Part shown: positions 45,760-48,924 of the stretch, piece by piece
Numbering within the stretch: position 1 is the first letter of the stretch
How the letters are laid out: each line of letters starts with the position of its first letter
Assembly: GCF_900099815.1 (NCBI RefSeq)
Contig: NZ_FNCW01000002.1
Coordinates: forward strand, 186,001-250,000
Source of the DNA: Psychroflexus sediminis
GTDB taxonomy: Bacteria; Bacteroidota; Bacteroidia; Flavobacteriales; Flavobacteriaceae
Length of the DNA stretch: 64,000 bases
Direction of reading: 5' to 3'
Program-made: the position numbers and the translations under genes
Notes under the pieces: model-generated
Told to the model about the DNA's origin: nothing
The model's database searches: none
The model's input: only the letters and a program-made list of their open reading frames with translations

Positions 45760-45767
45760 TAGTTTTG
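45760..45767 (+). promoter_or_regulatory. -7 element of leuS
   Basis: TAGTTTTG followed by CC, a perfect TAnnTTTG, 24 bases before the ATG at 45792; it favours 45792 over the ATG at 45765. Confidence 0.55.
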
Positions 45768-45791
45768 CCATTTGCAAATAAGCATTTCATT

Positions 45792-48700
45792 ATGGCATAC
45801 GATTTTAAAAGAATAGAGCAGGATTGGCAAAAATATTGGGCAAAGCATCAGACTTTTAAGGCTAAACAGCCTCAGGACTTTTCAGGAGAGCCCAAACCTC
45901 CGTTTTACGTATTGGATATGTTCCCTTATCCATCGGGAGCCGGTCTGCATGTGGGTCATCCTCTGGGTTATATTGCCAGTGATATCTATGCTCGTTATAA
46001 AAGACATTCAGGTTATAATGTCCTGCATCCACAGGGCTACGATTCCTTTGGTTTACCGGCCGAGCAGTATGCGATCCAGACGGGTCAGCACCCTGCCAAA
46101 ACTACCGAAGCCAATATCAAAAGGTATAGAGAGCAACTCGATAAAATCGGTTTCTCTTTCGACTGGAGCCGGGAAGTTCGCACCAGCGATCCCAAGTATT
46201 ACAAATGGACACAATGGATTTTTATCCAGTTGTTTGAAAGCTGGTATGACGAAGCTGCTCAGAAGTCCAAACCGATTTCGGACCTGATTCAGATTTTTGA
46301 AAGTGAAGGAAATTCAGAAGTTCAAGCGGTTTGTGATGGCGATACACCAGAATTCTCTGCTGAAGACTGGAAGGCCTTTTCGGATGATGAAAAAGAACAG
46401 CACCTGCTTAACTATAGATTGACTTACCTCGCAGAAACCGAAGTAAACTGGTGTCCGGCTTTAGGAACCGTGCTGGCCAATGATGAAATCGTCAACGGTG
46501 TCTCCGAACGCGGAGGACATACCGTTGTGAGAAAGAAAATGAAGCAGTGGAGCATGCGTATTTCTGCCTTTGCTGAACGTCTGCTTTCAGGATTAGACGA
46601 TTTGGACTGGAGCGAAAGTCTAAAAGAAACTCAGAAAAACTGGATTGGAAAATCAGTTGGAGCACAATTAAAATTCAAAATTCAAAATTCAAAATTTTTA
46701 ATTGAGGCTTTCACCACGCGTCCCGACACGATTTTTGGAGTGTCCTTTATTACCTTAGCTCCGGAGCACGATTTGGTGAGTCAGATCACGACCCCGGAAC
46801 AAAAAGAAGCAGTGGATACCTATGTAAAAGCTGCTGCCAGGCGAAGCGAACGCGAGCGTATGGCAGATGTTAAAAGCATAACGGGAGTATTTACAGGTGC
46901 TTTTGCTGAGCATCCTTTAACCCAGAAACCCATTCCGATCTGGATTGGCGATTATGTGCTGGCCAGCTACGGAACCGGCGCGGTGATGGCGGTCCCCTGT
47001 GGTGATCAGCGCGATCATGATTTTGCCAAACACTTCGGTATTCCCATCCCTAACGTATTTCAAGGCATAGATATTTCTGAAGAAGCCTATACCGATAAAA
47101 CCAATACCACCAAAATCGCAAACTCCGATTTTCTCGATGGTTTGGGCGTTTTGGAAGCCATTCCTAAGGCGATTGAAGCCCTGGCCGATATTGGTGCAGG
47201 AGATAAAAAAATCAACTACAGATTACGGGATGCTGTGTTCTCAAGACAGCGTTACTGGGGAGAACCATTTCCGGTGTATTACGTCAACGACCTGCCTAAA
47301 ATGATAGCTGAAAAACACCTGCCTTTGAAACTTCCGGAAGTGGAGAAGTACCTGCCCACGGAAGACGGTGCGCCACCTTTGGGGAGAGCTACCGAATGGG
47401 CCTGGGACACAGAAACTAATCAGGTGGTTTCTAATGATAAAATCGATCACAAGAGCGTTTTTCCTCTCGAATTGAATACCATGCCCGGCTGGGCCGGGAG
47501 TTCCTGGTACCTGTTCCGCTATATGGAAGAGCAGAACAACCGCGACCAGCATATCGCCTCCGATGAAGCTTTGAACTACTGGAAAAACGTTGACCTATAC
47601 ATTGGAGGAAGCGAACATGCTACCGGTCATTTGTTATATTCCCGGTTCTGGACCAAATTCCTGAACGACAGAGGGGTTCTGCCGGTAGACGAACCTTTTA
47701 AAAAGCTGATTAACCAGGGGATGATTCTGGGGGAAAGCGCTTTTGTTTATAGGTATAAGGCATCAGGTGGAGAAGGTAGAATTGGAGAGAATATATATAT
47801 CACCTATGACTTTGTTAAGTCAATAAAAGAAGAACTTTCAAAATTTGAAAATATCTTTATAAGAGAAAATGGAATTTTTGATAAAAATAATAATATCATA
47901 GATTCTGAAATTATAATTAAATATACTCCAATTCTAAAGAAGATTTTTTCTTTAGGACAAAGTAATATGCTTATTATGGAAAGGTCTTTTGATCCTATTC
48001 ATGTTGATGTTTCTGTAGTCAACACCTCGAATCAACTTGATATTGAAGGTTTAAAGAAAATAAAACCCGAATTTAGCGAAGCTAAATTCATCTTAAGCAA
48101 CGGAGAACTTTACGATGCCAACTCCTCCCCTTTGGGGAGGTCGGGAGGGGATTTTACGGTTTCTCGCGAAGTCGAAAAAATGTCGAAATCTAAATTTAAC
48201 GTGGTCAATCCGGACGATGTTTGTGAAGAATATGGCGCCGACAGCTTACGTCTTTACGAAATGTTTCTTGGTCCCATAGAACAGGCGAAGCCCTGGAATA
48301 CCGCCGGACTTTCTGGAGTTCATAACTTTCTGAAAAAGCTCTGGAAGTTGTATTCCCAAGCCTCCCCCGACCCCTCCCAAGGAGGGGAGTCTGACTTTCA
48401 GATTTCAGATGAACCTGGAAGTAAAGAATCCTTGAAAACGCTGCACAAAACCATCAAAAAAGTCACCCAGGATATCGAAGACTTTAGTTTCAATACGTCG
48501 GTGTCTACTTTTATGATCTGCGTGAACGAATTGACTCAGCAGAAGTGCAATTCAAGAGAAATTCTTGAGCCGCTCGCCATTTTAATTTCACCTTATGCGC
48601 CACATATCGCTGAGGAATTGTGGGAAGGTCTGGGTCATTCAGAAGGTATTTCAGAAGTAGCTTACCCTAAGTTTGAAGAAAAATACCTCAAGGAAGATTC

Positions 48701-48884
48701 CAAAACCTATCCGATTTCCTTCAACGGAAAGATGCGCTTTACCATGGATTTATCGCTGGACCTCAGCAAAGATGAAATCGAAGAAATAGTCATGGCCGAT
48801 GAACGCACTCAAAAACAACTGGAAGGCAAAACCCCTAAAAAGGTGATTATTGTGCCCGGTAAGATTGTGAATATTGTGGGTTAA
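45792..48884 (+). CDS. leuS: Leucyl-tRNA synthetase with repeat-derived insertions
   Basis: 1,030 residues from ATG 45792, longer than the roughly 860-950 usual for bacterial LeuRS. HIGH motif as HVGH (53-56), a CP1 editing domain (about 230-430, TTRPDTIFGVSF), KMSKS at 796-800 and a full anticodon-binding C terminus. The extra length has visible causes: a heptamer repeat encoding KFKIQNSKF at about 294-301, an AT-rich insert at about 652-748, and two GC-rich hairpin elements encoding NSSPLGRSGGD (about 777-787) and ASPDPSQGGES (about 857-867). All keep the frame, and catalytic motifs are intact, so the enzyme is probably functional. Confidence 0.95.
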   Translation: MAYDFKRIEQDWQKYWAKHQTFKAKQPQDFSGEPKPPFYVLDMFPYPSGAGLHVGHPLGYIASDIYARYKRHSGYNVLHPQGYDSFGLPAEQYAIQTGQHPAKTTEANIKRYREQLDKIGFSFDWSREVRTSDPKYYKWTQWIFIQLFESWYDEAAQKSKPISDLIQIFESEGNSEVQAVCDGDTPEFSAEDWKAFSDDEKEQHLLNYRLTYLAETEVNWCPALGTVLANDEIVNGVSERGGHTVVRKKMKQWSMRISAFAERLLSGLDDLDWSESLKETQKNWIGKSVGAQLKFKIQNSKFLIEAFTTRPDTIFGVSFITLAPEHDLVSQITTPEQKEAVDTYVKAAARRSERERMADVKSITGVFTGAFAEHPLTQKPIPIWIGDYVLASYGTGAVMAVPCGDQRDHDFAKHFGIPIPNVFQGIDISEEAYTDKTNTTKIANSDFLDGLGVLEAIPKAIEALADIGAGDKKINYRLRDAVFSRQRYWGEPFPVYYVNDLPKMIAEKHLPLKLPEVEKYLPTEDGAPPLGRATEWAWDTETNQVVSNDKIDHKSVFPLELNTMPGWAGSSWYLFRYMEEQNNRDQHIASDEALNYWKNVDLYIGGSEHATGHLLYSRFWTKFLNDRGVLPVDEPFKKLINQGMILGESAFVYRYKASGGEGRIGENIYITYDFVKSIKEELSKFENIFIRENGIFDKNNNIIDSEIIIKYTPILKKIFSLGQSNMLIMERSFDPIHVDVSVVNTSNQLDIEGLKKIKPEFSEAKFILSNGELYDANSSPLGRSGGDFTVSREVEKMSKSKFNVVNPDDVCEEYGADSLRLYEMFLGPIEQAKPWNTAGLSGVHNFLKKLWKLYSQASPDPSQGGESDFQISDEPGSKESLKTLHKTIKKVTQDIEDFSFNTSVSTFMICVNELTQQKCNSREILEPLAILISPYAPHIAEELWEGLGHSEGISEVAYPKFEEKYLKEDSKTYPISFNGKMRFTMDLSLDLSKDEIEEIVMADERTQKQLEGKTPKKVIIVPGKIVNIVG
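46673..46694 (+). repeat. Heptamer tandem repeat inside leuS
   Basis: Three perfect copies of ATTCAAA (46673-46693). Because three heptamers make 21 bases, one added unit set keeps the frame; it encodes the loop KFKIQNSKF at the start of the editing domain. Confidence 0.85.
48121..48150 (+). repeat. GC-rich hairpin element, copy 1, in leuS
   Basis: 30 bases with a 7-bp stem CCTCCCC (48124-48130), loop TTT, arm GGGGAGG (48134-48140), then TCGGGAGGGG. It lies in the plus orientation and is translated as part of LeuRS just before the KMSKS loop. Confidence 0.85.
48361..48390 (-). repeat. GC-rich hairpin element, copy 2, in leuS (inverted)
   Basis: Read on the minus strand it has the same 30-base plan as copy 1: ACT, stem CCCCTCC, loop TTG, arm GGAGGGG, then TCGGGGGAGG. 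Both stem arms differ from copy 1 while still pairing. It is translated in the opposite sense, as ASPDPSQGG. Confidence 0.85.
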
Positions 48885-48924
48885 ATATCATAGCCCACGA
48901 TTTAAATCGTGGGCTATGATATTT
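48883..48924. repeat. 42-bp perfect palindrome between leuS and polA
   Basis: Every base from 48883 to 48903 pairs with 48924 down to 48904; the core is AGCCCACGATTT and its complement. It contains the last two bases of the leuS TAA and the first base of the polA stop, filling the whole gap. It can end transcription from both sides; its GC core also resembles REP-like elements common in Bacteroidota. Confidence 0.9.

Follow-up and report, generated by a model that had tools for sequence, protein, structure and literature searches.

Translated triplex-type repeats in leuS of Psychroflexus sediminis and the position of such motifs relative to DUF559 endonuclease genes

Rickettsia palindromic elements (RPEs) are short palindromic repeats that lie in frame in housekeeping genes and are translated. 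A second kind of repeat, the potential intrastrand-triplex (PIT) or BoxC repeat of E. coli, was described in 2015 by Holder (PMC4666352), whose available text defines an ITxF as three triad-forming arms of 6-15 nt with loops of 1-6 nt and at most one mismatch, writes the E. coli triplex motif (TM motif, TMECO) as CCCTCNCCC N3-6 GGGNGAGGG N3 GGGNGAGGG, and counts 3610 occurrences of it in 262 genomes. No function or driver is given there, and the main text does not mention Bacteroidetes or flavobacteria. Repeats of a third type carry a GTAG or CGTC tag and include REPs within genes, tRNA synthetases among them (2013, PMC3733652, in its available portions), and the HuH endonucleases have been treated in the accessible part of PMC6006769 (2018). 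Finally, the DUF559 protein VsrA of Caulobacter, which belongs to the PD-(D/E)XK superfamily, is required for an SOS response in cells lacking a methyltransferase (PMC12907096, available text).

Here, we describe two elements, A and B, located in the leucyl-tRNA synthetase (LeuRS) gene leuS of Psychroflexus sediminis, within a 64-kb stretch of DNA that was analysed as a whole and is called the window below. Like the PIT/BoxC repeats, they consist of a C-rich arm, a short loop, a G-rich arm, a 3-nt spacer and a second G-rich arm in mirror order; both groups are dispersed in either orientation, and the spacers TTA and CCG are common to E. coli and flavobacterial copies. On the other hand, the arms are mostly 7 nt long in flavobacteria and 9 nt in E. 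coli, elements A and B are translated within a gene whereas the motif of E. coli K-12 MG1655 is reported as exclusively intergenic, and the flavobacterial repeats are linked to DUF559 whereas the available text on the E. coli motif does not tie it to mobile elements (PMC4666352). With their 7-nt arms and intragenic position, elements A and B fall outside TMECO. The window feature is a pair of triplex-type repeats of a known kind, newly seen translated within an essential gene. A previous sequence-only reading knew of no described family in Flavobacteria; as a DNA motif, however, this kind had already been described (PMC4666352).

Two triplex-type repeats within leuS

The leuS product has a LeuRS equivalog match of 911.9 bits in a family scan, and its frame extends back from the ATG to a TTG codon at 45765 (Table 1). 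The two oppositely oriented, in-frame elements that had been noticed there are both present. Element A reads CCTCCCC-TTT-GGGGAGG-TCG-GGAGGGG (27 nt) and element B, on the minus strand from 48387 to 48361, CCCCTCC-TTG-GGAGGGG-TCG-GGGGAGG (27 nt). In both, the final seven bases are the mirror image of the 3' arm, so that what had been taken for a mere G/A tail is instead a third strand (GGGGAGG-TCG-GGAGGGG and GGAGGGG-TCG-GGGGAGG). A mirror-ordered purine tail can lie antiparallel on a purine arm, forming G.G-C and A.A-T triads and hence a Y-R-R intrastrand triplex. From their base order, elements A and B may fold into triple-stranded DNA of this type. The triplex definition of PMC4666352 covers both of them, with 7-nt arms, loops of 3 and 3 nt and no imperfect triad.

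Table 1. Positions of leuS and of the features within it in the window
Feature	Position	Strand	Details
leuS, leucyl-tRNA synthetase, host gene	45792..48884	+	open frame 45765-48884
Empty DUF559 site in leuS	46677..46709	+	LeuRS residues 296-306, just before FTTRPDT
Element A	48124-48150	+	arm 48124-48130, loop 48131-48133, arm 48134-48140, spacer TCG 48141-48143, mirror tail 48144-48150
Element B	48361-48387	-	arm 48387-48381, loop 48380-48378, arm 48377-48371, spacer 48370-48368, mirror tail 48367-48361

Each element is the sole match to itself in the window at up to three mismatches (none in 100 shuffles), and a detector allowing at most one imperfect triad finds elements A and B as the only triplex-type motifs in the 64 kb (none in five base shuffles). 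The same detector found two motifs in 232 kb of DNA upstream of relatives' leuS genes, for which 80 loci contributed their initial 2.9 kb each; in six of them, where the upstream flank is short, this includes part of leuS. Element A is read in frame as SSPLGRSGG, starting at residue 778 (counted from 45792) and lying about ten residues N-terminal of EKMSKS, and element B is read antisense, also in frame, as SPDPSQGG from residue 858. Both peptides are predicted as coil in an AlphaFold model of the window LeuRS (33 rows), to which little weight can be given since the model is poor (mean pLDDT 69.4, pTM 0.49); solved LeuRS chains align only from just after element A and thus do not place it. Searches against Rfam gave sub-threshold matches only, such as that of element B to whalefall-1 (16.4 bits, cut-off 37).

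Comparison of 24 congeneric LeuRS revealed a patchy distribution of both peptides. Element A is present in G000, G013 and G321, occurs with changed arms and tail in G021 (CTTCCCC/GGGGAAG/GATGGGG) and is degenerate in G010, while G024 and G320 have a longer loop at this site with no clear copy. For element B, intact copies occur in G000, G013 and G001, while G004 has a shortened one and G022 and G321 possibly retain remnants. Since the two elements differ in their distribution, they were inserted separately and, judged from these alignments, they are presence/absence insertions with decaying copies, as had been suspected of the peptides. Because the repeats are translated in frame in leuS and are present or absent between close relatives, they work like RPEs. 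The likeness to RPEs that had been proposed accordingly holds for translated, in-frame, presence/absence palindromic insertion; it does not extend to plan or size, as elements A and B have three strands and are more than a hairpin.

Over 81 LeuRS sequences, such peptides recur at a few sites, alongside inserts resembling other repeats. The latter, noted in L027, L034, L041, L055, L057, L063, L064, L079 and L087, include TLSxVEG or HAEPVEAS types and, in Mesonia LeuRS (L027 and L034), RHSELDSES/HHSELDSES types encoded by a ATTCCGAA-loop-TTCGGAAT hairpin, which is preceded by CGTC in L027. Residues about 664-765 of the window LeuRS form a segment of some 100 residues before KMSKS, and both its length and its sequence are hypervariable across LeuRS of flavobacteria. 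Directly 3' of leuS, the window contains a long palindrome at 48886-48924 (GCCCACGATTTAAATCGTGGGC with flanks), each strand of which has a sub-threshold match to Rfam Acido-Lenti-1 (27.4 and 26.9 bits, against a cut-off of 37).

Copies and covariation of the repeat family

Further copies, which the sequence-only reading had proposed to look for, were found in the P. sediminis genome and beyond. With these copies present and the peptides patchy in LeuRS, neither of the two outcomes named in that reading as refuting it was observed. A purine/pyrimidine pattern matched 66 places in 13 of 21 genomes, most of which had been picked since a looser search had looked rich there, and reversed-pattern controls matched none; five of these places, all strict copies, belong to P. 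sediminis. In an even draw of 139 Flavobacteriaceae, 88 places were found in 36 genomes, compared to 2 for reversed controls. A looser version of the pattern was set aside, as among the matches listed from 296 genomes it mostly picked out A-rich sequence of small genomes.

The third strand stays in register with the hairpin across copies, i.e., arm, arm and tail co-vary. Among 61 distinct flavobacterial copies assembled for this comparison, 48 form a perfect triplex of at least 7 triads, compared to a mean of 27.8 and a maximum of 38 in 300 deals in which the tails were dealt anew; with at most one defect, the number is 57 (dealt anew: mean 38.6, maximum 47). When 44 distinct cores are compared in one fixed register, the arms pair at 0.964, compared to 0.809 when dealt (maximum 0.873), and mirror identity is 0.896, compared to 0.817 (maximum 0.883), the latter lying barely beyond the dealt maximum because some copies have 8-nt arms in a different register. 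The stems of elements A and B, whose differences had been interpreted as compensatory changes, are the two commonest subtypes of one family rather than point compensations, and the compensatory element of that interpretation survives as the joint variation of the three strands over the 61 copies. The commonest spacers over the copies are CTG, TTA, TCG, CTA, TTG and CCG. A hairpin-only view was less informative: 81 leuS genes contain 87 perfect stems of at least 7 bp, modestly more than 20 synonymous shuffles do (mean 65, maximum 78); many of these stems fall in conserved codons, and it is the mirror tail that distinguishes the element.

According to open frames and family scans, 20 of the 66 places lie within genes, half of them in leuS (7) or ileS (3) and the others in icmF (2), hutU (2), a radical SAM gene (2, neither of them within the matched domain), hemF, kdpB, a UvrD/RecB-like helicase gene and an adenylate cyclase gene (1 each). 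Three copies at gene ends, in genes that we mostly take, by our own assignment, to be hemW-like, murQ-like and small thioesterase-like, are excluded from the 20, and the remaining places are intergenic or directly 5' of start codons. Five start-codon copies (L128, L132, L134, L143 and L145) share an upstream stretch close to TACCCCAATAGG (CACCCTAATAGG in L145) in front of different genes, with the tail GGAGG just 5' of the ATG. In hutU of G030 (L138:1501-1527 and 2104-2130), each motif is followed by a second motif-like peptide in the protein (e.g., TSPNPSKGGEHGTSPSPAGRAGVGS), and these pairs resemble an inverted pair without a nuclease between.

Position of the motif relative to DUF559

A scan of two motif-bearing host proteins detected a DUF559 domain, also in frame, which in one of them directly precedes the motif. 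Searches of 24 chosen genomes located DUF559 at 31 places in 16 genomes; the P. sediminis genome gave no DUF559 match in this search although it has five motifs, and its copies would therefore be relics or predate loss of the gene. The position of the motif was assessed at 55 flavobacterial loci, the best places of two DUF559 searches (58 distinct places minus the weak partial matches L226, L227 and L238), with L273, which has no open frame, and L269, whose coordinates are misplaced, counted as misses and the detector settings chosen once a slightly looser detector had given a first view. At 29 of the 55 loci, a complete motif stands no more than 150 nt from DUF559, whereas none occurs in 312 control windows of 150 nt farther out, a contrast that is somewhat inflated for standalone DUF559 genes because the control windows are mostly coding, where motifs are rarer; the in-frame DUF559 units are coding as well. 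Motifs stand upstream at 25 loci, downstream at 20 and on both sides at 16, and at 26 loci there is none within 150 nt.

Sixteen of 20 loci with motifs to the left and right of DUF559 have them in inverted orientation, and the likeness between left and right motifs within a unit (0.325) exceeds that obtained when motifs were dealt anew (0.121, maximum 0.238; 0 of 5000 deals as high; 20 loci). The association extends to other phyla. Of 43 plasmid records with a match to YcjD, 30 were listed, and 10 of these were taken, for spread, before looking; six of these ten loci (Azospirillum, Sphingomonas, Synechocystis, Deinococcus, Pseudanabaena and Photobacterium) have a motif within 150 nt, compared to 2 of 60 controls. 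At the level of whole genomes, motifs are present in 27 of 57 Flavobacteriaceae with a DUF559 match under 1e-10 and in 9 of the 82 others (odds ratio 7.3, p 2.9e-6; 24 of 57 and p 3.4e-5 if three genomes that have their sole motif no more than 2 kb from DUF559 are classed as motif-less), a test that ignores kinship, with nearly every genome coming from a different genus. Conversely, 30 of the 57 genomes have no strict motif. Among the papers listed by a search of largely open-access literature, none joins DUF559 to intrastrand triplexes.

DUF559 is also read in frame in seven kinds of host gene, namely leuS (13 loci), metH (4), ileS, recG and genes of RecB-like helicases (2), together with end fusions to hemD (5, N-terminal) and hisD (C-terminal). 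The leuS units of relatives, mostly with adjoining triplex motifs, occupy one site, which is empty in the window (Table 1); twelve of them end directly before FTTRPDT and the thirteenth, L268, runs into a longer insert there. Among 25 congeneric loci, 24 of which are clear leuS genes while G014 may be cut at the site, DUF559 is found in five (G013, G022, G004, G321 and G024), including one, G013, whose LeuRS is 96% identical to that of the window over the part compared. In P. planctonicus (L020), an apparent left motif is joined to the right border in a deletion-scar-like arrangement. At the sites of elements A and B, DUF559 was not seen in the 24 congeneric LeuRS.

The presumed catalytic alignment columns D46, E57-x-D59 and H63 are unchanged in all 27 in-frame copies. 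In a DUF559 tree, for which the bootstrap was still short of settling fully, the RecB-like pair has a leuS copy as its sister (98/90), ileS groups with recG as its sister (97/90) and the hemD-fused copies form one clade (99/99); as related copies occur in different host genes, the lineage has switched host gene. In the five flavobacterial genomes with the hemD fusion (L253, L258, L261, L267 and L277), DUF559 stands in frame before uroporphyrinogen-III synthase (HemD), and the motifs on both sides of these units are close to the 9-nt E. coli type. Inteins and homing endonucleases similarly place a nuclease domain in frame at a recurrent site of essential genes, with presence or absence between close relatives. 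The present system differs from inteins in that a single DUF559 group is found in several genes, that there are short solo motifs, that no nuclease lies within elements A and B, and that Pfam/NCBIfam detected no splicing domain in the DUF559-bearing LeuRS (L183), UvrD-like protein (L176), RecG, IleRS, MetH, HemD and HisD.

The E. coli K-12 gene ycjD belongs to DUF559, and 168 nt away from it is a TM motif (1351205-1351239), a proximity for which the expected number is 0.003. Of 5426 E. coli genomes, 3364 cover the ycjD region. In rows spread over the matches listed, motif-like places are about as numerous in genomes with ycjD as in those that lack it; in another listing, whose rows were ranked by coverage, rows without ycjD are lower (1 to 4 versus 2 to 6). 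The 3' end of E. coli ycjD holds an apparent half TM motif (L211:2896-2923).

Origin and spread of the repeats

Considering these data together, elements A and B are probably purine-motif triplex repeats that were inserted separately in leuS as solo ends of a DUF559-linked mobile system tolerating translation. The full unit would comprise a gene for a DUF559 (Vsr-like) endonuclease with a triplex motif on one or both sides, usually inverted. When single-stranded, the strand carrying C-arm, G-arm and G-tail would adopt the Y-R-R fold, which the cognate DUF559 protein would recognise and then nick or cut; repair might then place a copy of the motif, or of the entire unit, elsewhere. The link to DUF559 draws on position, on cognate motif pairs and on breadth, from which we infer action of the enzyme on the motif. 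Elements A and B would have entered permissive segments of leuS in frame. Insertion into a gene would be survivable, since the core reads as a linker rich in Pro, Ser and Gly and is stop-free in all six frames in 42 of the 61 copies and in four in the remaining 19. The frame of the nuclease is also open, and whole units may persist as an extra domain of LeuRS, IleRS, MetH or RecG. Several results weigh against this reading: the five motifs of P. sediminis with no DUF559 match, the 26 of 55 DUF559 loci and 30 of 57 genomes that have DUF559 but no motif at the stated limits, the 9 of 82 genomes with a motif but no strong DUF559 match, the similar motif numbers in E. coli rows with and without ycjD, the lack of DUF559 at the sites of elements A and B, and RNA folding at the level of shuffles.

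With somewhat less confidence, we favour the broader view that a Vsr-like DUF559 endonuclease and its cognate triplex end motifs constitute an unrecognised class of mobile element, occurring in at least four phyla, able to reside as an unspliced in-frame domain in essential genes and leaving solo motifs such as those in leuS, and that this class is the missing driver of PIT/TM/BoxC repeats, including those of E. coli (ycjD). VsrA of Caulobacter shares the DUF559 domain family but is known for its role in DNA damage in cells without cytosine methyltransferase, the available text giving no link to repeats (PMC12907096). Judging from the in-frame units, LeuRS, IleRS, MetH and RecG appear able to carry a nuclease whose presumed active site is intact, and essential enzymes may thus be invaded without splicing. 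If this is correct, it would account for peculiar insert peptides and for DUF559 fusions among annotated proteins, and long-known repeats would gain a likely driver. The cognate position link to a nuclease family makes the origin of the E. coli repeats testable in K-12.

The most serious alternative, which we nevertheless consider unlikely, is that ordinary PIT/TM repeats spread by replication or recombination errors at non-B DNA with no dedicated enzyme, DUF559 being a passenger or a responder to damage. Such spread would agree with the instability and the lack of a mobile-element link reported for the E. coli motif in the available text of Holder 2015 (PMC4666352), as well as with the occurrence of motifs in genomes without DUF559, such as P. 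sediminis, and in E. coli without ycjD. It does not readily account for the nearness of motifs to DUF559, for the frequent pairs of inverted, mutually similar motifs around one unit, or for whole units inserted in frame in several genes.

It is far less probable that the repeats are REP- or RPE-type elements with GTAG or CGTC tags moved by a RAYT transposase, although REPs are described within genes including tRNA synthetases (PMC3733652, in part) and the P. sediminis genome has two Y1_Tnp loci. Neither locus has a triplex motif, REP-like repeats of a different, unrelated kind flank one of them, and GTAG and CGTC tags are absent from the flanks of elements A and B; for this genome, the involvement of a REP-type transposase, which had been suspected, is thus largely refuted. 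REPtrons (REP plus RAYT) do resemble the DUF559 units in having short structured repeats, partly inverted and cognate in sequence, that flank a nuclease-type partner gene, but this partner is a HuH/Y1 transposase instead of a Vsr-like DUF559 protein and the repeats are tagged. At one of the two loci (L003:1267-2210), the Y1_Tnp (RAYT-like) gene occupies 1408-1974 and several flanking hairpins have the core TCTTGCGCGAT..ATCGCG, some of them after GTAG.

More doubtful still is a selected host feature, either an mRNA structure of leuS or useful loop peptides of LeuRS: both elements do lie in an essential gene, one of them just before the KMSKS loop, and element B has the sub-threshold whalefall-1 match given above, but the insertions are patchy and decaying in congeners, copies also occur in unrelated genes and between genes, and RNA hairpin folding of the elements is no better than that of shuffles (z about 0). 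Chance or low-complexity sequence, suggested by the shortness of the elements and their purine and pyrimidine runs, is refuted by the copy counts (none in window shuffles, 66 versus 0 in 21 genomes and 88 versus 2 in 139 genomes).
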